Origin: Sphingomonadales bacterium
GTDB taxonomy: Bacteria; Pseudomonadota; Alphaproteobacteria; SMXS01
Direction: 5' to 3'
DNA: 47,037 bases
NCBI GenBank assembly: GCA_022844405.1
Contig: JALHLV010000031.1
Coordinates: 1-47,037, forward strand
Shown here: piece after piece, positions 10,852 to 24,704 of the stretch
Layout of the letters: each line of letters begins with the position of its first letter
Position numbering within the stretch: position 1 is the stretch's first letter
Made by a program: the position numbers and the translations under genes
Notes under the pieces: generated by a model
Told to the model about the DNA's origin: nothing
The model's database searches: none
Seen by the model: the letters and a program-made list of their open reading frames with translations, nothing else

Positions 10852-12345
<1,494 letters not shown>

Positions 12346-12445
12346 TTCGGCAGATGGCTAAAAATTGCCCAATCTGTGCCCATGGATTGGCCGGTACGGT
12401 GTGAAGCCGGCCACCAACGCAGACGAAACCGCGCAACTGCGGCGC

Positions 12446-12461
12446 TGGCACGGGAGTTGCT
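12446..12461 (+). promoter_or_regulatory. Sigma-54 (-24/-12) promoter of the guanidine operon
   Basis: TGGCACG, four bases, TTGCT matches the sigma-54 consensus at every defining position. The GG (12447-12448) and GC (12459-12460) are separated by exactly ten bases. Transcription would begin about 12 bases further on, near 12472, right where the riboswitch starts. Sigma-54 with NtrC controls nitrogen scavenging in proteobacteria, which suits a guanidine-nitrogen operon. I found no convincing NtrC site in the 90 bases upstream. Confidence 0.75.
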
Positions 12462-12473
12462 TGTTAACCAGCA

Positions 12474-12581
12474 TAGGGCGGCTAGGGTTCCGGCGCGGCG
12501 CTCCGCGCGACTGGTCCGAGAGCCGCCGCTCGTCCGGTGTACAGCGGCCGAGTACACGGCGGGACAAAAGCCCGGGAGGTC
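12474..12581 (+). promoter_or_regulatory. Guanidine-I riboswitch (ykkC class)
   Basis: All conserved blocks of the guanidine-I aptamer occur in order: CTAGGGTTCCG, a GCGCGG/CCGCGC hairpin, CTGGTCCGAGAG, a GTGTAC/GTACAC hairpin (12537-12557), then ACGGCGGGACAAAAG and CCCGGGAGG. It lies between the sigma-54 type promoter and the importer gene of a guanidine degradation operon. This is the established genetic setting of the class, where guanidine binding switches expression on. Confidence 0.93.
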
Positions 12582-12584
12582 ACC

Positions 12585-12662
12585 ATGATGCTGGGATTGG
12601 CATCATACAAACGGCCTCGCCAATCCCCGGATCAGCACTCGTTTTTTTGGAGGATTGGGACT
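12585..12662 (+). promoter_or_regulatory. Candidate expression platform of the guanidine riboswitch
   Basis: Three mutually exclusive pairing segments are visible. A is GGGATTGGC (12593-12601), B is its exact complement GCCAATCCC (12619-12627), and C is GGATTGG (12652-12658), which overlaps the ribosome site GGAGG of the binding-protein gene. A:B leaves the site free; B:C buries it. A local hairpin ATGATGC/GCATCAT (12585-12606) would hold A in its loop. A run of seven T (12642-12648) is present but 14 bases from the A:B stem, so translational control looks likelier than termination. Confidence 0.55.
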
Positions 12663-13733
12663 ATGCAGAAAACATCCAGGTTCGTCGCCGCGCTGGCCAT
12701 CGCCGCCATGACGTTGACCGCGTTTGCCGCGCCGGCGAGCGCGGCCAAGAAGACCGAATTCAAGTTTGCCTGGTCGATCTATGCCGGCTGGATGCCGTGG
12801 GGCTGGGCCGCCGATCAGGGCATCGTCAAGAAGTGGGCCGACAAATACGGCATCAAGATCGACGTGGTGCAGTTCAACGACTATGTGGAATCGATCAACC
12901 AGTACACCGCCGGCGCCTATGACGGCGTGGTCGCCACCAACATGGACGCCCTCGCCATCCCGGCGGTCGGCGGCGTCGACACCACGGCGCTGATCGTCGG
13001 CGACTTCTCCAACGGCAACGACGCCATCATCCTGAAGGGCAAGACCAAGCTGCCCGACCTGATCGGCCAGAAGGTCAATCTGGTCGAGCTGTCGGTGTCT
13101 CATTACCTGATGGCCCGCGCGCTGCAGTCCATCGGCAAGTCCGAGAAGGACGTCACCGTGGTCAACACCTCGGACGCCGACATGGTCGCTGCCTGGAAGA
13201 CCAAGGACGTCACCTCGGTGGTCACCTGGAACCCGCTGGTCGCCGAGATCCTCGCCGACAAGAACGCCCACAAGGTGTTCGATTCCAGCCAGATCCCAGG
13301 CGAGATCATGGACCTGTCGGTGGTCAACACCCAGACCCTGAAGGACAACCCGAATTTCGGCCGCGCGCTCACGGGCGCCTGGTACGAAACCATGACGATC
13401 ATGAGTTCGGACACGCCCGAGGGGAAGGCCGCCCGCGAGGCCATGGGCAAGGCGTCGGGCACCGACCTGGCCGGCTACGACGCCCAGCTCGCCACCACGC
13501 GCATGTTCTACACGCCCAAGGAAGCCACCTCCTTCACCATGGGCGCGTCGATCTACAAAACCATGGACCTGGTGCGGACCTTCCTGTTCTCCCACGGCCT
13601 GCTGGGGCAGGGCGCGGCCAGCGCCGACGTGGTCGGCATCGCCTTCCCCGACGGCAAGGTGCTGGGCGACAAGAACAACGTGAAGTTCCGCTTCACCGCC
13701 GCCTACATGAACGAAGCCGCCAAGGCCAAGTAA
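12663..13733 (+). CDS. ABC transporter substrate-binding protein, guanidine/urea operon
   Basis: Periplasmic binding protein (356 aa) of the NMT1/taurine-like group. The signal peptide begins MQKTSRFVAALAIAAM and is cut after ASA near residue 27. Family features include FAWSIYAGWMPWGWAADQGI and the NMDALAIPAV region. Its place just behind a guanidine-I riboswitch and ahead of the catabolic genes indicates guanidine, or a derivative, as the ligand (inference). The start is fixed by the signal peptide and GGAGG at 12649-12653. An in-frame upstream ATG at 12585 would add 26 residues. Confidence 0.88.
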   Translation: MQKTSRFVAALAIAAMTLTAFAAPASAAKKTEFKFAWSIYAGWMPWGWAADQGIVKKWADKYGIKIDVVQFNDYVESINQYTAGAYDGVVATNMDALAIPAVGGVDTTALIVGDFSNGNDAIILKGKTKLPDLIGQKVNLVELSVSHYLMARALQSIGKSEKDVTVVNTSDADMVAAWKTKDVTSVVTWNPLVAEILADKNAHKVFDSSQIPGEIMDLSVVNTQTLKDNPNFGRALTGAWYETMTIMSSDTPEGKAAREAMGKASGTDLAGYDAQLATTRMFYTPKEATSFTMGASIYKTMDLVRTFLFSHGLLGQGAASADVVGIAFPDGKVLGDKNNVKFRFTAAYMNEAAKAK

Positions 13734-13743
13734 GGACGTGCCG

Positions 13744-14595
13744 ATGGATAGGGCGGGCGGCAGGCCGGCGGTCATGCGCAAGCGCATGATCAATGTCTAC
13801 CCGACACGGGGCGCGGCGCTGTTCCTGGCGGCGCTCCCTTTCCTGCTGCTGCTGCTCGCCTACCTTGCCGGGTCGGCGGCCCGGCTTGCGGACAATCCCG
13901 ACGACAAGCTGCTGCCGTCCTTCGCGTCCATCGGCGCCGGCTTCGCCCGCATGGCGTTCGAGGCCGACCCGCGGACCGGCGATGTGCTGCTATGGGTCGA
14001 CACCGCCGCCAGCCTGGCCCGCCTGCTCGCGGGGCTCGCCATCGCCACGGTGATGGCCGGCGTGTTCGGCATCGCCATCGGCCTGGTTCCTTTCGTGCGC
14101 ACCACCTTCAACGGGTTCGTGGCGGTCATCGCCATGATCCCGCCGCTCGCCATCCTGCCCATCCTGTTCATCATCTTCGGGCTGGGCGAGACGTCGAAGG
14201 TGGCGCTCATCGTCATCGGCGTCGCCCCCGTGGTCATGCGCGACATGATCTTGCGGGTCGACGAGATGCCGAGGGAGCTGATGGTCAAGGCCCAGACGCT
14301 GGGCGCCTCCACCTGGCAGATCGCCCTGCGCGTGGTGGTGCCGCAGATGATGCCGCGGCTCATCGATTCGGTCCGGCTGTCGTTGTGCTCGGCCTGGCTG
14401 TTCCTGATCGCGGCGGAAGCCATCGCCTCCCAATCGGGGCTTGGCTACCGCATCTTCCTGCTGCGCCGCTACCTGGCCATGGACACCATCCTGCCCTACG
14501 TCGCCTGGATCACCCTGCTCGCCTTCGCGCTCGACTTCGGCCTGCGCCGCCTGCAAGGCAAGGCGTTTCCCTGGTTCGCGCAGGGGAGAACCTGA
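13744..14595 (+). CDS. ABC transporter permease, guanidine/urea operon
   Basis: Integral membrane permease (283 aa) of the SsuC/TauC type. Several hydrophobic helices are visible, beginning FLAALPFLLLLLAYLAGSA, and the coupling loop is LMVKAQTLGASTWQIALRVVVPQ. ATG 13744 is used because AAGGA lies seven bases before it; GTG 13738 is the alternative. It starts ten bases after the binding-protein gene and its stop overlaps the ATPase start by one base. Confidence 0.88.
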   Translation: MDRAGGRPAVMRKRMINVYPTRGAALFLAALPFLLLLLAYLAGSAARLADNPDDKLLPSFASIGAGFARMAFEADPRTGDVLLWVDTAASLARLLAGLAIATVMAGVFGIAIGLVPFVRTTFNGFVAVIAMIPPLAILPILFIIFGLGETSKVALIVIGVAPVVMRDMILRVDEMPRELMVKAQTLGASTWQIALRVVVPQMMPRLIDSVRLSLCSAWLFLIAAEAIASQSGLGYRIFLLRRYLAMDTILPYVAWITLLAFALDFGLRRLQGKAFPWFAQGRT

Positions 14596-15413
14596 TGACC
14601 GCCGTCAGCGTCCGGAACGTCTGGAAGGAATATGACGGGCGCATCGTGCTCGAGCAGGTCTCGCTCGAGGTCGAGCCCCATTCCTTCATCGCCCTGGTCG
14701 GCCCGTCCGGCTGCGGCAAGTCCACCTTCCTGCGCATGCTGCTGTCGGCCGAGACGCCGACCAAGGGCGACATCCTGTTCGAGGGCGAACGCTTGCCCGG
14801 CGAGCCCACCGCCGACCGCGGCGTGGTGTTCCAGCGGTACTCGGTGTTCCCGCATCTGACGGTGCTGGAGAACGTGGTGCTGGGCAAGGAATTCGCCGCC
14901 TCGCCGCTGCTCGGCAAGCTGTTCGGCAAGGCGAGGAAGCGGGCGCGCGAGGAGGCGGCGGAGATCCTTACCGCCGTCGGTCTGGGCGACTTCCTCCACC
15001 TCTATCCCAGCCAGCTTTCCGGCGGTATGCAGCAGCGCCTCGCCATCGCCCAGGCGCTGATCAAGCGGCCGAAGATCCTGCTGCTCGACGAGCCGTTCGG
15101 CGCGCTCGATCCCGGCATCCGCGCCGAGATTCACGTGCTGATGCTCAAGCTGTGGCGCGAAACCAGGATGACCGTGTTCATGGTCACCCACGATCTGTCC
15201 GAGGCGTTCCATCTCGGCACCCGCGTCATCGCCTTCGACCGGCCGCGCAACCGGCCCGAAGAGCGCGACCGGTACGGCGCGACCATCACGCACGATCTGG
15301 CTGTCTGGCCGCCGAAATATCCTGTATCAGACACGCACATTGCCTCGGGCGGGACGACCCGCCTGCTCGACGAGCTCGAGGCATTGCCGGGACGGCCCGG
15401 CGTCGGTCACTAG
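14595..15413 (+). CDS. ABC transporter ATPase, guanidine/urea operon
   Basis: Nucleotide-binding subunit (272 aa) of the nitrate/taurine type. Walker A is GPSGCGKS at residues 36-43, the signature LSGGMQQR and Walker [14 protein letters not shown] follow, and the H-loop is VTHD. The C-terminal tail (about 225-272) extends past the ABC core, is rich in Arg and Pro, and has no assigned role. It is coupled by a TGATG overlap to the permease. Together with the two upstream genes it forms the operon's importer. Confidence 0.9.
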
Positions 15414-15422
15414 GAGCAAGTC

Positions 15423-16250
15423 ATGACCGCGCTGGACAACGCCACCCCGGAAGAATTCCGCCGCCGCTACGAGGAACTGAGGGCCGGCGCCCACGAAAAG
15501 TCGCCGCGCCTCGCCCAGGCGGCGAAGGAACCGTCCAACCCCGCCCGCATCAAGCCGAAAAAGGTTCTCCACCGCGAGATCATCCCCGGCGGCTGGTACT
15601 GGGGCATGGTGATCCCGCGCGGCCGGACGCTACGCATCGTCAATGGCGGCACCGGCGGCGTCTCGGCACTGTTCTGGAACATCGACGACACCAGCGAACG
15701 GTACAACGCGGGCGACACCGTGAAGGTGCAGTGGCACGCCAACCTGTCGAAGGGCCGGGTGCTGTTCTCCGACATGGGCCGGGTGCTGATGTCGATCACC
15801 GACGACACCACCGCCGGCCGCCACGACTTCATCGCCGGCGGCTCGACGCCGTTCAGCAACAACCGGCGCTATGGCGACGACACGCTGCGCAACAGCCGCG
15901 ACAATTTCCGGCTGGCGGTCGGCAAATACGGCATGGGCGTCAAGGACGTGCCGCCCTGCGTCACCTTCTTCGCCGGCGTCTCGACCGGCGAGGACGGCCG
16001 CTTCGCCTGGACCGGCGGCCACGACAAGGCGGGCGACTACGTGGATCTGCGGGCCGAGATGAACGTGCTGGCGGTGCTGTCGAACTGCCCGCATCCGCTC
16101 GATCCGTCGCCGGTCTACGCGCCGAAATCCATCGAGGCCATCGTCTGGGACTCGCCCGAGCCCGACGAGGACGATCTCTGCCGCACGGCCACCGAGGAAG
16201 CGGTGCGCGGCTTCGAGAACACCGATCCGCTGTTCGGCAGCAGGGCATAG
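15423..16250 (+). CDS. Urea carboxylase-associated protein 1 (DUF1989); carboxyguanidine deiminase subunit
   Basis: 275 residues of the DUF1989 family, long annotated as urea-amidolyase-associated protein 1. The family with its partner is now known to form a heteromeric carboxyguanidine deiminase, which converts carboxyguanidine to allophanate and ammonia. Visible marks are the GGWYWGMVIPRGRTLRI start of the domain, the NVLAVLSNCPHPLDP motif and the KYGMG motif shared with the next gene. Cysteines occur at PPCVTF and SNCPH. The ribosome site GGAG precedes the ATG. Confidence 0.88.
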   Translation: MTALDNATPEEFRRRYEELRAGAHEKSPRLAQAAKEPSNPARIKPKKVLHREIIPGGWYWGMVIPRGRTLRIVNGGTGGVSALFWNIDDTSERYNAGDTVKVQWHANLSKGRVLFSDMGRVLMSITDDTTAGRHDFIAGGSTPFSNNRRYGDDTLRNSRDNFRLAVGKYGMGVKDVPPCVTFFAGVSTGEDGRFAWTGGHDKAGDYVDLRAEMNVLAVLSNCPHPLDPSPVYAPKSIEAIVWDSPEPDEDDLCRTATEEAVRGFENTDPLFGSRA

Positions 16251-16259
16251 GAGGCGGCC

Positions 16260-16895
16260 ATGACCAGGTTCATCGACCGCGACTATTCGACCGCCGTCTA
16301 CGATTTCATCATCCCCGCCCGGAAGCCCTGGTCGGGCGTGGTGAAGCAGGGTCAGGTGCTGCGCATCGTCGACCTGGAAAGCCAGCAGGCCGTCGACACC
16401 ATCCTCTACAACGCCCACAACACTACCGAACGCTACAGCGCCCAGGACACGCTGACCGCCCAGGGCGCCGCCTATATCGAGGCGGACACGGCGCTGATGT
16501 CCAACGAGGGCAACGTGATGGCGACGCTGGTCGCCGACACCTGCGGCCGGCACGACACCTCGGCCGGCGCCTGCTCGTGCGAGAGCAACACGGTGCGCTT
16601 CGGCCACCACACCAAATACATGCACGCCTGCCGCGAGAACTTCCTGCTGGAGGTGTCGAAATACGGCATGGGCAAGCGGGACATCGTCGGCAACATCAAC
16701 TTCTTCATGAACGTGCCGATCAGCCCGGGCGGCGCGGTCAACATCGACGACGGCATCTCCGAGCCGCTCGGCTATGTGGACCTGCAGGCGGCGATGGACG
16801 TGCTGGTGGTGATCTCCAACTGCCCGCAGGTCAACAACCCGTGCAACGGGTTCAATCCCACGCCGATCCGCGTGCTGATCTGGGACGCGGCGTGA
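16260..16895 (+). CDS. Urea carboxylase-associated protein 2 (DUF1989); carboxyguanidine deiminase subunit
   Basis: 211 residues, homologous to the preceding gene and its expected partner. It carries the Cys-rich stretch DTCGRHDTSAGACSCES, then HHTKYMHACREN, KYGMG and ISNCPQVNNPCNGFNPTP; Cys and His here are the likely metal ligands of the active site. AGGAGG lies just before the start. The stop is one base from the carboxylase start, consistent with joint expression. Confidence 0.88.
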   Translation: MTRFIDRDYSTAVYDFIIPARKPWSGVVKQGQVLRIVDLESQQAVDTILYNAHNTTERYSAQDTLTAQGAAYIEADTALMSNEGNVMATLVADTCGRHDTSAGACSCESNTVRFGHHTKYMHACRENFLLEVSKYGMGKRDIVGNINFFMNVPISPGGAVNIDDGISEPLGYVDLQAAMDVLVVISNCPQVNNPCNGFNPTPIRVLIWDAA

Positions 16896-16896
16896 C

Positions 16897-19800
16897 ATGT
16901 TCAACAAGGTCCTGATCGCCAACCGCGGCGAGATCGCCTGCCGGATCATCCGCACCCTGCGCCGCATGGGCATCGCCTCGGTCGCCGTCTATTCGGACGC
17001 CGACCGGCATGCGAGGCACGTGCTGATGGCCGACGAATCCGTCCGCATCGGCCCAGCGCCCGCCGCCGAGAGCTACCTCGACCAGCAGGCCATCATCGAC
17101 GCCTGCAACCTGACCGGCGCGGAAGCGGTGCATCCCGGCTACGGCTTCCTCAGCGAGAATCCCGGCTTCGCCGAGAGGCTGTGGCTGAACGGCATCCGCT
17201 TCATCGGCCCCGGCGCCGACCACATGCGCGCCTTCGGCCCCAAGCACACAGCGCGCGAGATCGCCGAGAAGAGCGGCGTGCCGCTGCTGCCCGGCACCGG
17301 TCTGCTGGCTGGCGTCGGCGAGGCGCTAACCGCTGCCGCTTCCATCGGCTATCCGGTGATGCTCAAGAGCACGGCGGGCGGGGGCGGCATCGGCATGCAG
17401 CTTTGCCACGCCGACGCGGACCTGACCGCCCGCTACGAGGAAGTGAAGCGGCTCAGCCAGAACAATTTCGGCGACGCCGGCCTGTTCATCGAGAAGTTCG
17501 TCAGCCGCGCCCGGCACATCGAGGTTCAGATCTTCGGCGACGGCAAGGGCAAGGTGGTGGCCCTGGGCGAGCGCGACTGCTCGCTCCAGCGCCGCAACCA
17601 GAAGGTCGTCGAGGAGACGCCCGCGCCGCATTTGTCGGCGCAGGGCCGGTTCGATCTGCATGCCGCCGCCATCGCGCTCGGTAAGACCGTCGACTACGAA
17701 TCCGCCGGCACCGTCGAGTTCGTCTACGACGTGGACGCGGAGGCCTTCTACTTCCTCGAGGTCAACACCCGGCTGCAGGTCGAGCACTGCGTCACCGAGG
17801 AGGTGTTCGGCGTCGACCTGGTGGAATGGATGGTGCGCCAGGCGGCGGGCGAGGAGCTTTCGCTCGATGTGCCCGCGCCAAAGGGCGCGGCCATCGAGGT
17901 GCGCATCTACGCCGAGGACCCGGCCAAGGATTTCCGTCCCAGCGCAGGCCGGCTCACCCAGGTGAAATTCCCCTGCGGCGTTCGCGTCGACGGCTGGGTC
18001 GAATCGGGCACCGAGGTGCCGCCCTATTACGATCCCATGCTGGCCAAGCTGATCGTTTCCGCGCCGACCCGCGCCGCCGCCGTCGAGAAGCTGGTGGAGG
18101 CGCTGGACAGATCGAGCCTCTACGGCATCGAGACCAATTTGGCCTATCTGCGCGAGATCGCCCGCTCTCAGGTGTTCCGCGACGGTAAGGCGATCACCGC
18201 CACGCTGAAATCCTTTCCGTTCGTGTCCAAGTCGGTCGAGGTACTGGCGCCCGGCGCCCAGTCCAGCATCCAGGACTGGCCCGGCCGCGTCGGCTACTGG
18301 AGCGTGGGCGTGCCGCCGAGCGGGCCCATGGATGCGTTTTCGTTCCGCCTCGCCAACCGGTTGGTCGGCAACGACGAGGGCGCGCCGGGTCTTGAGATCA
18401 CCCTGACCGGCCCGACCCTGTGCTTCGGTTGCGACGCGGTCATCGCGTTGGGCGGCGCGAAGATGAAGGCGACGCTCGACAGCGAGCCCGTCGCCTGGTG
18501 GCGGACGATGGCGGTGAAGGCCGGCCAGGTGCTGGCCATCGGTGCCATCGACGGACCGGGAAACCGGGCCTATCTGGCGGTCGCGGGCGGCTTCGACGTG
18601 CCCGACTATCTGGGCTCGGGCGCCACCTTCGGCCTCGGCGGTTTCGGCGGCCATGCGACAGGCACGCTGCGCACCGGCGACGTGCTGCGGCTGAACGGCA
18701 CCGAAAAGCCCTACATTCCGCAGGTGCTGCGCGACGACGCGCTGCCGCCGCTCACCCGGAGCTGGGAGATCGGCGTGCTCTACGGCCCGCACGGCGCGCC
18801 CGACTTCTTCACCGACGCCGACATCGAGACGTTCTTCTCGTCCGAGTACGAGGTGCATTTCAACAGCTCGCGCACCGGCGTGCGCCTGATCGGCCCCAAG
18901 CCGCAATGGGCGCGGGCCGACGGCGGCGAGGCGGGGCTGCACCCGTCCAACATCCACGACAATGCCTACGCCATCGGCGCCATCGACTTCACCGGCGACA
19001 TGCCGATCATCCTCGGTCCCGACGGCCCCAGCCTGGGCGGCTTCGTCTGCCCGGCGGTGATCGTCGACGCCGAGCTGTGGAAGACGGGCCAGCTCAAGCC
19101 GGGCGACAAGGTGCGGTTCCGCCGGCTCGAGCTGGAAGAAGCCGCGGCGCTGCGCCGGGCGCGGGACGCGGCGGTGATGAACCTGACGGTTCCGCCGCCC
19201 GTGGTCGCGCCCGTCGCCCGCAAGCGCGATGCCGTGCTGGAACGGTATTCCGAGGACAACGTGCCGGTGTGCTACCGCGCCGCCGGCGACCGCTACCTGC
19301 TGGTGGAATACGGGCCGCTGGTGCTCGACATCGCCCTGCGGATGCGGGTCCACGCGCTGATGCAGGCCATCGAGGCGGAAGGCTGGGCCGGCATCATCGA
19401 CCTGACACCCGGCATCCGCTCGCTGCAGATCCATTACGACAGCATCGCCCTGCCGCTGGGCAAGCTGCTGGGCGGCCTGAAGGCGCTGGAGCTCAGCCTG
19501 CCCGACGCCAAGGACATGCGGGTGCCGTCGCGGATCGTCCACCTGCCGCTGTCATGGAACGACGACCAGGCCCAGCTCGCCGCGCAAAAATACATGGACC
19601 TGGTGCGGCCGGATGCGCCGTGGTGCCCGTCGAACATCGAGTTCATCCGGCGGATCAATGGGCTCGACAGCGTCGACGACGTCTACCGGCTGTTCTTCGA
19701 CGCCAGCTACATGGTGCTGGGCCTGGGCGACGTCTATCTGGGCGCGCCGGTCGCCACGCCGGTCGATCCGCGCCACCGGCTCGTGACCACCAAGTACAAC

Positions 19801-20478
19801 CCGGCCCGCACCTGGACGCCGGAGAACGCGGTGGGCATCGGCGGCGCCTATCTGTGCATCTACGGCATGGAGGGGCCAGGCGGCTACCAGCTCGTCGGCC
19901 GCACCATCCAGGTGTGGAACACCTGGCGCCAGCCCAAGCCGTTCGAGGACAAGGTGCCGTGGCTGCTGCGGTTCTTCGACCAGATAAAGTTCTTCCCGGT
20001 CTCGGCCGAGGAGCTGCTGGAGGCCCGCGCCGATTTCCCTTATGGCCGCTACAGGGTCGACATCGAGGAAACCAGCTTCAGCCTGCGGGAGTACAGCCAC
20101 TTCCTTGACGCCAACGCAGACGGCATCACCGCCTTCAAGACCAGGCAGCAGGCCGCGTTCGAGGCCGAACGCCAGCGCTGGGCCGAGCAGGGCCTCGCCA
20201 CCTATGTGGGCGAGGAGACCGTCGCCGCCATTCCCGACGAGGGCGCGCTGCCGGAGGGATCGGTGGGCGTCGAGTCCCACGTCCCCGGCAACGTCTGGAA
20301 GCTGGTCGCCGAACCGGGCCAGTCGGTCGAGGCGGGCGACACCCTGGTCATCGTCGAATCCATGAAGATGGAGCTGGCCATCACCGCCCCGGTCGCGGGC
20401 GTGGTCAGCGAGTATCGCTGTCAACCCGGCCGTCCCGTGCAGGCGGGACAGGTCGTCGCCGTACTGAAGGCCGCCTGA
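16897..20478 (+). CDS. Guanidine/urea carboxylase, biotin-dependent
   Basis: 1193-residue multidomain enzyme. The biotin carboxylase domain (about 1-450) begins FNKVLIANRGEIACR and has the glycine-rich ATP loop AGGGGIGM after Lys157. A KipA/AHS2-type carboxyltransferase domain follows from about 448 (GAQSSIQDWPGRVGYW), then an AHS1-type domain near 780-860. The biotinyl domain closes the chain with Lys1157 in ESMKMEL. Such enzymes are annotated as urea carboxylase, but those linked to guanidine-I riboswitches and DUF1989 pairs act on guanidine; I infer guanidine here. Its stop overlaps the hydrolase start (TGATG). Confidence 0.92.
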   Translation: MFNKVLIANRGEIACRIIRTLRRMGIASVAVYSDADRHARHVLMADESVRIGPAPAAESYLDQQAIIDACNLTGAEAVHPGYGFLSENPGFAERLWLNGIRFIGPGADHMRAFGPKHTAREIAEKSGVPLLPGTGLLAGVGEALTAAASIGYPVMLKSTAGGGGIGMQLCHADADLTARYEEVKRLSQNNFGDAGLFIEKFVSRARHIEVQIFGDGKGKVVALGERDCSLQRRNQKVVEETPAPHLSAQGRFDLHAAAIALGKTVDYESAGTVEFVYDVDAEAFYFLEVNTRLQVEHCVTEEVFGVDLVEWMVRQAAGEELSLDVPAPKGAAIEVRIYAEDPAKDFRPSAGRLTQVKFPCGVRVDGWVESGTEVPPYYDPMLAKLIVSAPTRAAAVEKLVEALDRSSLYGIETNLAYLREIARSQVFRDGKAITATLKSFPFVSKSVEVLAPGAQSSIQDWPGRVGYWSVGVPPSGPMDAFSFRLANRLVGNDEGAPGLEITLTGPTLCFGCDAVIALGGAKMKATLDSEPVAWWRTMAVKAGQVLAIGAIDGPGNRAYLAVAGGFDVPDYLGSGATFGLGGFGGHATGTLRTGDVLRLNGTEKPYIPQVLRDDALPPLTRSWEIGVLYGPHGAPDFFTDADIETFFSSEYEVHFNSSRTGVRLIGPKPQWARADGGEAGLHPSNIHDNAYAIGAIDFTGDMPIILGPDGPSLGGFVCPAVIVDAELWKTGQLKPGDKVRFRRLELEEAAALRRARDAAVMNLTVPPPVVAPVARKRDAVLERYSEDNVPVCYRAAGDRYLLVEYGPLVLDIALRMRVHALMQAIEAEGWAGIIDLTPGIRSLQIHYDSIALPLGKLLGGLKALELSLPDAKDMRVPSRIVHLPLSWNDDQAQLAAQKYMDLVRPDAPWCPSNIEFIRRINGLDSVDDVYRLFFDASYMVLGLGDVYLGAPVATPVDPRHRLVTTKYNPARTWTPENAVGIGGAYLCIYGMEGPGGYQLVGRTIQVWNTWRQPKPFEDKVPWLLRFFDQIKFFPVSAEELLEARADFPYGRYRVDIEETSFSLREYSHFLDANADGITAFKTRQQAAFEAERQRWAEQGLATYVGEETVAAIPDEGALPEGSVGVESHVPGNVWKLVAEPGQSVEAGDTLVIVESMKMELAITAPVAGVVSEYRCQPGRPVQAGQVVAVLKAA

Positions 20479-22310
20479 TGCCCCACTCGTCGTTCCAGAT
20501 CGAAGACCTCATCGCCTCATACCGGGACGGGCGCACCACGCCCGAACAGGTGATCGCCGAGGTCTACGACCGGATCGACGCCTGGCCCGACAAGGCCGTG
20601 TGGATCAGCCTGTTTCCGCGCGAGGAGGCGCTGGCCAAGGCGAAGGCGCTGGCCGCGCGGCCCGAAGGCGTCGATGGGCTGCCGCTCTACGGCGTCCCGT
20701 TCGCGGTGAAGGACAACATCGACGTGGCCGGACTGCCGACCACCGCGGCGTGTCCCGACTACGCCTACCAGCCCTGGGAGAACGCCACGGCGGTGCAGCG
20801 CCTGCTCGACGCGGGCGCCATCGCCATCGGCAAGACCAACCTGGACCAGTTCGCCACCGGATTGAACGGCACACGCTCGCCCTATGGCGCGCCGCGCTGC
20901 GTGTTCGACCAGGAGTACATTTCCGGCGGCTCCAGCTCCGGCTCGGCCGTGGCGGTGGCCTCGGGCATGGTCTCGTTCTCGCTCGGCACCGACACGGCCG
21001 GATCGGGCCGGGTGCCGGCGGCGCTCAACAACATCGTCGGGGTCAAGCCGACCAAGGGTCTGCTCAGCACGGCGGGCGTGGTGCCGGCGTGCCGGTCGCT
21101 CGACTGCGTCACCGTGCTGGCGCTCAATGTCGGCGACGGCAACCGGGTGCGGCGCATCGCCTCGGCCAATGACGGCGACGATCCCTATGGCCGGACCATG
21201 ACGCCAAAATCGTTACCACTTCGCGGCTTCCGCTTCGGCGTGCTGGCCGGCGAGGACCGCAATTTCTTCGGTGACAAGGACTCGGCGGGCCTCTACGACC
21301 GCGCTTGCGAACGGCTCGCCAGCTTTGGCGGTCAGGCGGTGCCGTTCGACTACCAGCCGTTCCGCGATGCCGCCGCGCTGCTCTATGACGGGCCTTGGGT
21401 GGCCGAGCGGCTGGCGGCGATCCAGACCTTCTTCAACAACAATCCCATGGCGGTGCATCCGGTGGTGCGCCAGATCGTCCAGGGCGGCCGCCGGTTCAGC
21501 GCGCTCGACGCCTTCGAGGGCCAGTACCGGCTGAAGGCGCTGGAGCGGGTGGCGGCACGCGAGTGGGAGAAGTTCGACTTCATGCTGCTGCCCACCTGCC
21601 CGACCACCTACAAAGTGGCGGAGATGGAGGCCAATCCGGTCGAGTACAATTCCAACCTGGGCCTCTACACCAACTTCGTGAACCTGCTGGACTGCTGCGG
21701 TCTCGCGGTGCCAGCCGGCAAGCGCCGCGACGGCCTGCCGCTGGGCGTGACCCTGATCGGCCCGGCCTTCACCGACGATGCGCTCGGCGTGCTGGGCGAC
21801 CGGCTGCACCGGGCGCTGGTCGAGAGCGCCGGCGCCACCGGCCAGCTGCTGTCCGCCCGCTCGCTGGTCGCCGAACCGGCGGGCGCCGCGTATGTGGACC
21901 TGGCCGTGGTCGGCGCCCATCTGCGCGGCATGAAGCTGCACCACCAGCTCACCGAGCTCGACGCGCGGTTCGTGCGCGCCTGCCGCACCGCCGGCAGCTA
22001 CCGGCTGTTCGCCCTGCCCGACACGACGCCGCCAAAGCCGGGGCTGATCCGCGATCCGGACTTCAAGGGCAAGGGTCTGGAGATCGAGGTCTGGCGGCTG
22101 ACCGACGCCGCGTTCGGCCGCTTCGTCGGCCGCATCCCCGGCCCGCTCGGCATCGGCACCATCGAGCTGGAGGACGGCACCAGCGTGAAGAGTTTCCTCT
22201 GCGAGGAATGGGCGGTGCGCGGCGCCGAAGAGATCACCGGCTTCGGCGGCTGGAAGGGCTATTGTACGGCCTTGACCATGGGTAAGGCGGGGGTTGCATC
22301 GCCGGGTTGA
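20478..22310 (+). CDS. atzF: Allophanate hydrolase
   Basis: 610-residue amidase-signature enzyme that hydrolyses allophanate to ammonia and CO2, the last step of this operon. The triad Lys78 (FAVKDN), Ser152 (SGGSSSGS) and Ser176 (TDTAGSGR) is intact, with the spacing of characterised AtzF proteins (74 and 24 residues). The extra C-terminal domain of about 150 residues typical of full allophanate hydrolases is present (FALPDTTPPKPGLIRDP onward). It ends the operon. Confidence 0.93.
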   Translation: MPHSSFQIEDLIASYRDGRTTPEQVIAEVYDRIDAWPDKAVWISLFPREEALAKAKALAARPEGVDGLPLYGVPFAVKDNIDVAGLPTTAACPDYAYQPWENATAVQRLLDAGAIAIGKTNLDQFATGLNGTRSPYGAPRCVFDQEYISGGSSSGSAVAVASGMVSFSLGTDTAGSGRVPAALNNIVGVKPTKGLLSTAGVVPACRSLDCVTVLALNVGDGNRVRRIASANDGDDPYGRTMTPKSLPLRGFRFGVLAGEDRNFFGDKDSAGLYDRACERLASFGGQAVPFDYQPFRDAAALLYDGPWVAERLAAIQTFFNNNPMAVHPVVRQIVQGGRRFSALDAFEGQYRLKALERVAAREWEKFDFMLLPTCPTTYKVAEMEANPVEYNSNLGLYTNFVNLLDCCGLAVPAGKRRDGLPLGVTLIGPAFTDDALGVLGDRLHRALVESAGATGQLLSARSLVAEPAGAAYVDLAVVGAHLRGMKLHHQLTELDARFVRACRTAGSYRLFALPDTTPPKPGLIRDPDFKGKGLEIEVWRLTDAAFGRFVGRIPGPLGIGTIELEDGTSVKSFLCEEWAVRGAEEITGFGGWKGYCTALTMGKAGVASPG

Positions 22311-22362: not shown

Positions 22363-23229
22363 TCACGCTGGGTCACAACCGAGCTGCCTCAGAAATCCCT
22401 CAAGGTAATGGTCTGGGATGTCGGTCCCTAGATACTCGAGGACCAGCCGCAATTCGGTCTCCAGCGACTTCAGCCGGCCATCGTTGGACATTACCCCGTT
22501 GAAGTAGGTTCCGTAGACGGCGAATGTATTGTCAATCAGGTCATTCCGGGCCTTCCCGACATTCTTGCTGATAGTCCCACCCCTACGAACCAGCTCCAAT
22601 AGATAGAGTACTTGAGCTAGAGCCAACCGATAGGGAAAGGTCATAATTCGATCTTTGAATGGCAACTCCATCACGCCATTCTCCCGGGATGGCGTCATCT
22701 CCTCGCAAAGCTGATCGACAATCTCAAATATTTTCTTAATCAGTTCCTGAGAGCGTGGTTGAGAGGTCCGGATCACCCTAAGTTCCTCTCGAGTGAAATC
22801 TTCTGCAATCCATGCAAGCACATTTTGCAGCTCAGCCGCACCACCCTGAACCCGAAGGATTTGGTCATCAGCATTCCGGCCGTGGGCAACGATCTGCTCA
22901 ATGACTTTAGGATCGCCGTTCCTCGCTTGCCGGAACGCGAGTACCGTGTTTTCGAAGTCACTCTCCTCTCGGGACAGCAGCATCCGGTTAGCTAAGTCGA
23001 GCGCCTGAACATCTAAGGCGCTGACCGTATTCATACCCCGCGCGGTAAAAACTTGGCTTGGGAAGTCTACAAGAATGGCCGTCGATCTAAGAATCGAGGT
23101 TAGCGACTCGCCCTTGTAGGCTTCCATCCAAGCATAATCTGTAAGGATGACCTGGTTTTCCGAACAAGCAGAGAGGAAGCAGCGCAGTAAGTCCGCCTGT
23201 AGGCAATTGCTGTCGACCACAACCCGCAT
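22363..23229 (-). CDS. PIN-like domain protein (putative ribonuclease)
   Basis: 288 residues, no close family recognised. The N-terminus MRVVVDSNCL, Glu36 in AWMEAYKG, and late acidic residues Asp230/Asp233 (RNDLID) and Asp250 (SNDGRL) give the D..E..D..D order of PIN nucleases, with a long helical insert between. Start ATG 23229 follows GGAG; the longer frame begins with TTG. Codon use is visibly less GC-rich than the operons on either side, as in the next genes, which suggests transfer. A defence or stress role is only a guess. Confidence 0.55.
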   Translation of the reverse strand: MRVVVDSNCLQADLLRCFLSACSENQVILTDYAWMEAYKGESLTSILRSTAILVDFPSQVFTARGMNTVSALDVQALDLANRMLLSREESDFENTVLAFRQARNGDPKVIEQIVAHGRNADDQILRVQGGAAELQNVLAWIAEDFTREELRVIRTSQPRSQELIKKIFEIVDQLCEEMTPSRENGVMELPFKDRIMTFPYRLALAQVLYLLELVRRGGTISKNVGKARNDLIDNTFAVYGTYFNGVMSNDGRLKSLETELRLVLEYLGTDIPDHYLEGFLRQLGCDPA

Positions 23230-23349
23230 CAAGATTTCTCCGTCCAGCCGCCTTTGGCATTGTATCGGCTTCTACCAATCCTGCGGTTTCCCAGATCACG
23301 TGCCTGCCGTCACCCATTTCGTCAACGTCCGCTTTCCATTGAGGCTGTG

Positions 23350-23498: not shown

Positions 23499-24704
23499 GT
23501 GACCACGCATCAAATAGGACTGACCCCTTCTGAGCAGTTGGTGGCCGCTTTTTGCCATCGTTCCTTCCTGCGTCTCTGGACCCACCCAAATCCGAAAGGA
23601 AAGAAGGGAAAGGAACTGTGTGACTGCCTCATCGTCTGTGACCGGCACGTCGTCATTATATCCGTTAAGGACTGTGCTTACCGTGACACTGGCGACACCA
23701 CTGGTTGGGAGCGATGGAGAAAGAAGGCGATCGAGGAGTCTCTATCCCAGATTGCTGGTGCAGAGAGATGGCTGGCAAGCATCGATCATGTCGAACGCTC
23801 CGACGGACGGCTAGTGCAGCTTCCGCCCCACGATGTGCGGCAATACCACCGCATTGCGGTGGCTCTCGGCGCAAATGGTGAAGTCCCTGTCGAATGGGGC
23901 GATCTAGGTAAGGGGTTTGTCCACTTGTGCGATGAGCGCAGCCTCGAAGCTATCTTTTCTTCACTCGATACGATCACTGACTTCGTTAAGTTCCTTTCCG
24001 ACACCGAGGCTTTGTTCGCGGGCGGAACCCGAATCGTTTGTTCCGGCGGCGGAATCGAAGATTTGCTGGCGCTCTATCTTGGATGGGGGGAGAAGTACAG
24101 CGTTCCAAACAGTACAGGTGAAGTCATCCCCGATCTGATGATCTTAGAGAACGATCTATGGGCTGGCTTATCCTCCTCCGAAGAATTTAAGCAGAGGCAT
24201 AAGGATTTGGAAATTTCTTATGCTTGGGATCGCCTGATCGAGCACTATGCGAACGACCTATTGACCGATGGTATGTTTGATTTTTTTGCTAAGGAGGTCA
24301 CCCAGGATCAACTTGCACTCATCGAGATGACCAAACAGCCGCGGCACCATCGCGCGCAACTCGCCGAGGCGCTTCTAGACTATCTATCCAATTCCAAATC
24401 CGCTGCGAGGGTTGCGGTCGGGTATGGTGGAACAGCCTTTGTTTTCATGGCTCGCGGCAGCGCCGATAGGGACTTTAGAGTTAAGGAGTTGGCGTTGCGT
24501 TGTCAGATCGTCAGGGCGCGGTGTCCAGGCGTGACGAAGGTCGTCGGCATCGGCACCGACCGACCGGGCCGTTCCGCTATCGGCTATTCCTCGGACATCG
24601 TCTATCTCGACTATCCAGAGTTCACAGACGAGCAGCGGGTGATGACCTTGAAAATGCAGGAAGATCTAGGGTATTTCAAAGGAGTGGCTTGGGGTGGAGG
24701 GTGA
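23499..24704 (+). CDS. Uncharacterised protein with PD-(D/E)xK-like nuclease motif
   Basis: 401 residues. Near the N-terminus Glu12, then GKELCDCLIVCDRHVVIISVKD, give the strand pattern of a PD-(D/E)xK nuclease, with Asp42 and Lys57; the usual Glu of ExK is Ser55, so activity is not assured. The rest is unassigned. GTG 23499 follows AGGAGG (23483-23488) by ten bases. An ATG at 23491 opens a three-codon frame whose TGA overlaps this GTG. Lower GC than the flanking operons. Part of the island with the PIN-like gene. Confidence 0.6.
   Translation: MTTHQIGLTPSEQLVAAFCHRSFLRLWTHPNPKGKKGKELCDCLIVCDRHVVIISVKDCAYRDTGDTTGWERWRKKAIEESLSQIAGAERWLASIDHVERSDGRLVQLPPHDVRQYHRIAVALGANGEVPVEWGDLGKGFVHLCDERSLEAIFSSLDTITDFVKFLSDTEALFAGGTRIVCSGGGIEDLLALYLGWGEKYSVPNSTGEVIPDLMILENDLWAGLSSSEEFKQRHKDLEISYAWDRLIEHYANDLLTDGMFDFFAKEVTQDQLALIEMTKQPRHHRAQLAEALLDYLSNSKSAARVAVGYGGTAFVFMARGSADRDFRVKELALRCQIVRARCPGVTKVVGIGTDRPGRSAIGYSSDIVYLDYPEFTDEQRVMTLKMQEDLGYFKGVAWGGG

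Follow-up and report, generated by a model that had tools for sequence, protein, structure and literature searches.

A putative guanidine assimilation operon with two riboswitches

The window analysed here is a 47,037-nt stretch of DNA from a Sphingomonadales bacterium (contig JALHLV010000031.1). Within it, a Guanidine-I riboswitch aptamer occupies positions 12471–12580 of the forward strand (Rfam RF00442, 96.3 bits against a cut-off of 63) and is followed by a series of genes on the same strand. The first three encode an ABC importer, consisting of a substrate-binding protein (12663–13733; TIGR03427, 541.6 bits, cut-off 333.9), a permease (13738–14595, start codon provisional; PF00528) and an ATPase (14598–15413, start assigned in this analysis; PF00005). 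Two genes for DUF1989 proteins come next, UAAP1 (15423–16250) and UAAP2 (16260–16895); we take this family to be the same as COG3665. Both proteins matched PF09347 and scored above the cut-offs of TIGR03425 and TIGR03424, respectively, and they are the putative subunits of a carboxyguanidine deiminase. With a urea carboxylase family enzyme (16897–20478; TIGR02712, 1886.3 bits) and an allophanate hydrolase (20478–22310; TIGR02713, 802.6 bits), the gene set of the guanidine carboxylase pathway is complete. Among NCBIfam models, the best match to the carboxylase is named urea carboxylase. We assigned guanidine as its probable substrate because the operon contains two guanidine riboswitches and because of the enterobacterial operons described in a review (PMC12186494). 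The two ORFs directly past the operon, at 22363–23232 on the reverse strand and 23499–24704 on the forward strand, gave no Pfam match.

The second riboswitch, a Guanidine-II element with two ACGR-loop hairpins, was found at 15346–15400 of the forward strand (RF01068, 42 bits, cut-off 32). It occupies part of the 3' end of the ATPase gene and precedes the DUF1989 gene that starts at 15423. Because it falls wholly within the ATPase coding sequence, the same bases specify both protein and RNA structure.

Between the Guanidine-I aptamer and the first importer gene is a putative expression platform (12581–12662, forward strand), which contains the repeats GGGATTGGC, GCCAATCCC and GGAGGATTGG (Shine-Dalgarno) and can form alternative helices. 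An RNAalifold consensus of eight leaders paired CCAATCC with GGATTGG, the latter overlapping the Shine-Dalgarno sequence; this pairing fitted poorly in the most distant of the eight. The leader also has GGATTGGC further upstream, a potential competitor for this pairing partner. The T-run after the aptamer differs in length between members of the genus, and a simple scan of 12340–12700 detected no terminator. The folding models suggest that the platform acts on translation. The switching scheme itself is put forward as a proposal, because a crude ligand-bound fold, in which the 3' end of the aptamer was barred from pairing, kept the Shine-Dalgarno helix closed. The direction and mechanism given below for both the Guanidine-I and Guanidine-II switches are likewise predictions from sequence.

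A perfect sigma-54 promoter sequence at the edge of the aptamer

Sigma-54 recognizes the consensus TGGCACG-N4-TTGCW, in which the GG and GC elements are held at a fixed spacing, and transcription starts about 12 nt past the GC of the -12 element. Immediately upstream of Guanidine-I we found the box TGGCACG-GGAG-TTGCT (12446–12461, forward strand), which matched all 12 specified positions of the consensus. Its -12 GC ends at 12460, which places the predicted transcription start near 12472, about 5 nt ahead of the first P1 pair of the aptamer (12477, position 7 of the Guanidine-I model). The first-pass annotation had described a near-perfect -24/-12 promoter ending about 13 bases before the aptamer, with a transcript that would begin almost at the first aptamer base. 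The box proved to be perfect, and the stated distance holds, give or take a few bases, according to where the aptamer is taken to begin. We predict that the box is an active promoter whose transcript starts near 12472.

The same box, matching at 12/12 positions and at an identical distance from the aptamer, was present in all seven members of the genus. The genome of the window contains a single copy of rpoN (PF04552, E 5.8e-68). A simple consensus scan of 12340–12700 gave no sigma-70-like site. Over the whole genome (3.78 Mb), five perfect boxes were found, including the one in the window, and the reversed pattern occurred once.

Recurrence of the arrangement in alphaproteobacteria

We searched for Guanidine-I in the seven genus members, 385 genomes of the class and 398 genomes of the phylum. 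From the matches we used 85 loci. Alphaproteobacteria contributed 45 of them (44 genomes), and other Pseudomonadota the remaining 40 (27 genomes). We excluded six rows: one copy of G253 at a contig start, which had no upstream DNA, and five that scored below the Rfam cut-off (G341, G168, G090, G573 and the third copy of G469). Two other rows below the cut-off were retained, G298, which has a box, and G649, which has none.

In the alphaproteobacterial scan, a box was counted when it matched at least 10 of the 12 positions and started no more than 48 nt before the aptamer, giving 32 start positions. The first-pass annotation had proposed a search for -24/-12 elements at the same spacing before other alphaproteobacterial leaders, and such a box preceded the aptamer in 35 of the 45 Guanidine-I loci (34/44 genomes, 23/30 genera). 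When the GG and GC pairs were made obligatory, 32 of the 45 loci still had one. The gap between the C of the -12 element and the aptamer was 5–15 nt in these 35 loci, most commonly 10 nt (13/35); therefore, the predicted start lies 0–10 nt ahead of P1 in all 35.

Taken alone, the box in the window might be a chance match without function, as the count for the reversed pattern implies about one match per genome. However, only 23 of 11478 control windows of equal size, taken downstream in the alphaproteobacterial loci, reached the box score, against 35 of the 45 loci. As far as sequence comparison reaches, this refutes a chance match, and we regard it as hardly credible.

All 34 alphaproteobacterial genomes with a box contained rpoN. 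It was also present in 8 of the 10 genomes having a Guanidine-I locus without a box; rpoN was absent from G602 and G696, two genomes of a single family. Another of these ten, G469, carries a box-bearing locus as well. With 10 of the 45 loci devoid of a box and rpoN retained in 8 of those 10 genomes, the pairing of sigma-54 promoter and riboswitch is therefore dispensable.

Several loci showed variations of their own. Three loci of genus g44 (L090, L096, L102) that are without a box share the sequence TTTGCTGTAATTG(T/C)ATACAGAG right before the aptamer. It resembles a -12 remnant fused to a palindromic operator and may reflect a promoter swap. In L110 (G465), also without a sigma-54 box, Guanidine-I is followed by an arginase-family gene, a candidate guanidinase. 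In genus g208 (L087 of G332 and L092 of G253), the first large ORF after the box and Guanidine-I is a gene for a TonB-dependent receptor, which stands ahead of the importer and could encode an outer-membrane guanidine receptor.

Recurrence in other Pseudomonadota

The 48-nt scan detected a box in only 1 of the 40 loci from other Pseudomonadota, which gave the impression that sigma-54 control was limited to alphaproteobacteria. A scan of 300 nt upstream ruled this out, as 36 of the 40 loci had a box, although the one in L149, at -28, is possibly due to chance. In the other 35 loci (24/27 genomes, 15/18 genera) the box started 49–99 nt before the aptamer. Among control windows, 40 of 2526 reached the box score. 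Thus, with boxes at 35 of 45 alphaproteobacterial and 35 of 40 other loci, the predicted pairing is common and widespread in Pseudomonadota and not peculiar to the locus of the window. The spacing is short in alphaproteobacteria and long in the other Pseudomonadota.

We also scanned contigs for a wrong-spacing pattern with one extra base between the two elements. This gave 14 matches, 3 of which were at true Guanidine-I aptamers. At the correct spacing, the Psychromonas aptamer among these three had a box 74 nt upstream, and those of Bacillus and Chamaesiphon had none at 10/12.

The beta- and gammaproteobacterial loci (e.g. L127, L143, L153) have 30–80 nt between box and aptamer, with GTGCAGG and CACAATNTG recurring there. 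A consensus fold of these long leaders gave no common structure.

The position of Guanidine-II also differed between the two groups. We found Guanidine-II-like hairpin pairs in 20 of 45 alphaproteobacterial stretches and 24 of 40 stretches from other Pseudomonadota, where 5 of the 24 represent one element counted twice through overlapping stretches. Several stretches are not long enough to reveal such a pair. In alphaproteobacteria the element precedes the first DUF1989 gene and lies inside the ATPase gene in 15 of the 20, whereas in other Pseudomonadota it precedes the carboxylase gene and lies inside the upstream gene in none of the 24. Among 14 other loci checked, 10 scored above the Rfam cut-off for Guanidine-II; L079, L084, L091 and L099 were below it.

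NtrC is the likely activator

The genome of the window has five matches to PF00158, three strong and two weak. The strong matches are NtrC (TIGR01818, 697.5 bits, cut-off 558.6), NtrX and RtcR, and all three exceeded the cut-offs of their NCBIfam models. The loop with which such activators contact sigma-54 carries the motif GAFTGA, which is present in NtrC and RtcR; NtrX has ERKQVGQ at that place. The RtcR gene adjoins a perfect box of its own (C3:87339-87354), located upstream of a divergent ORF. Because NtrX is without GAFTGA and RtcR stands beside its own box, NtrC is likely to be the activator by elimination; the two weak PF00158 matches may leave a loophole.

To describe candidate NtrC sites, we used one P-II gene of the genus, above whose box a dyad lies at 91–92 bp in all six genomes having that copy. 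A motif trained on those six P-II sites alone was applied at a threshold of 6 bits to the region 60–120 bp above each box. In the window it gave three overlapping 17-bp dyad-like sites, 11 bp apart and with no strand assigned, at 12355–12371, 12366–12382 and 12377–12393 (6.2, 7.8 and 7.1 bits), which together form a candidate NtrC enhancer. These scores are weak compared with those of up to 17 bits in other alphaproteobacterial loci. The segment 12355–12393 also lies upstream of a divergently oriented aminopeptidase gene, and the promoter of that gene may use the same DNA.

Dyads at threshold were found in 25 of the 35 alphaproteobacterial loci with a box, against a mean of 2.6 and a maximum of 9 in 200 dinucleotide shuffles, which control only in part for the AT-rich spacer columns of the motif. 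After leaving out the training genus, they were found in 18 of 28 loci (shuffles: mean 1.7, maximum 6). The remaining 10 of the 35 box-bearing loci had no dyad at threshold, and 1 of the 10 alphaproteobacterial loci without a box had one. With one site per genus from outside the training genus (n=16), the best sites showed an 11-bp phasing (R 0.73; p=0.00025 when compared with uniform positions). The exact pattern GCAC-N5-9-GTGC occurred in 1 of the 35 alphaproteobacterial loci and was too strict. The E. coli-type NtrC dyad is TGCAC-N7-GTGCA. With up to two mismatches, it was detected in 16 of 35 loci of other Pseudomonadota (shuffles: mean 2.0, maximum 6); for the trained motif the count was 12 of 35 (mean 1.3, maximum 6).

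A real sigma-54 promoter that is driven by NtrX or RtcR would agree with the three strong activator-domain proteins in the genome and with the weakness of the window's own NtrC-like sites. The loop sequence of NtrX and the private box of RtcR argue against it, as does the match between the upstream dyads and those above P-II genes, and we consider it unlikely. The elimination within the genome and the resemblance to the P-II promoter motif both favour NtrC, which the first-pass annotation had named as the probable regulator.

Alternatively, the box might be a relic or of minor use, with transcription mainly from sigma-70 and control by guanidine alone; the 10 of 45 alphaproteobacterial loci that manage without a box would agree with this. 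Alphaproteobacterial sigma-70 promoters often match the E. coli consensus poorly, so a consensus scan may overlook them. Nevertheless, the box and its spacing have been kept over 23 of 30 alphaproteobacterial genera, the scan of 12340–12700 gave no sigma-70-like candidate, and phased upstream dyads would not persist above a relic. A relic therefore seems to us a little less probable still than a different activator.

A proposed gate combining nitrogen status and guanidine

We propose, with a probability of about 0.8, that the operon is a nitrogen-scavenging unit under an AND gate, in which nitrogen shortage would act through NtrC and sigma-54 and guanidine would then be sensed twice. Under nitrogen shortage, phosphorylated NtrC would bind near 12355–12393 and open a poised sigma-54 polymerase at 12446–12461, and transcription would begin near 12472, right at the border of the Guanidine-I aptamer. 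In the presence of guanidine, Guanidine-I would switch on expression of the importer, probably through release of the Shine-Dalgarno sequence. Guanidine-II, in the end of the ATPase gene, would in turn activate the genes for the deiminase and for degradation. The first-pass annotation had already suggested that the operon is gated both by an enhancer-binding regulator and by guanidine itself, an idea consistent with all of the sequence evidence. The proposed gate suggests that bacteria handle guanidine as an ordinary nitrogen source to be scavenged, drawn on only when better nitrogen is absent, and not just as a poison to get rid of. It would also bring together on one transcript enhancer-dependent transcription and riboswitches, which are usually studied separately.

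A broader proposal, to which we give even odds, is that guanidine assimilation in Pseudomonadota is wired by default, and probably ancestrally, through this three-layer AND gate, with the promoter drawn in to the aptamer edge in alphaproteobacteria. If this is true, the fully protein-gated promoter of alphaproteobacteria would adjoin the RNA sensor without an intervening leader, and the two would act as one compact unit.

NtrC/sigma-54 promoters of nitrogen scavenging, such as those of P-II genes, share the -24/-12 box with the window and have dyads about 60–120 bp above it, where the window has weak candidate sites; unlike them, the window is predicted to give a transcript that opens with a ligand-sensing aptamer. 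Cyanobacterial gifB, which combines an NtcA promoter with a glutamine riboswitch, likewise places a nitrogen-status transcription factor and a riboswitch on a single transcript. That system differs from the window in that NtcA is no sigma-54 activator, and also in its ligand, its repressor logic and its phylum.

Guanidine assimilation operons under Guanidine-I and Guanidine-II are already known in enterobacteria (PMC12186494). There, a single cluster has the importer and deiminase genes behind Guanidine-I and the carboxylase and allophanate hydrolase genes behind Guanidine-II. The window resembles it, except that in alphaproteobacteria Guanidine-II precedes the first DUF1989 gene. The passages on these enterobacterial operons name no sigma factor or nitrogen regulator. 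For alpha-, beta- and gammaproteobacteria, a second study predicted that 102 genes of COG3665, 59% of them annotated as urea carboxylase, are regulated by sigma-54 (PMC12316311). These genes very likely belong to the same operons as ours, and the study is the nearest anticipation of their sigma-54 control; its main text is without the word guanidine, and riboswitch occurs in the reference list only. Our search of open-licence PubMed Central found no paper joining guanidine riboswitches to sigma-54 or NtrC, which agrees, within that collection, with the first-pass annotation, where no standard arrangement of this kind was known to have been described. What is new is the predicted joining of NtrC/sigma-54 to guanidine riboswitches, widespread in occurrence and abutting in alphaproteobacteria.

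The arrangement is also present in tractable named strains. We hand-picked 11 records from 361 having a match. Among them, two sphingomonad stretches showed no Guanidine-I core, Caballeronia had a box matching 10/12 positions at -64, and the plasmid locus of Sinorhizobium fredii CCBAU 25509 has the core but no box was found. In total, 7 of 8 named alphaproteobacterial plasmid loci with the core had a box: those of Rhizobium etli CFN 42, R. tropici CIAT 899, R. leguminosarum 248, Rhizobium CIAT894, Sinorhizobium B11, Allorhizobium and Peteryoungia.
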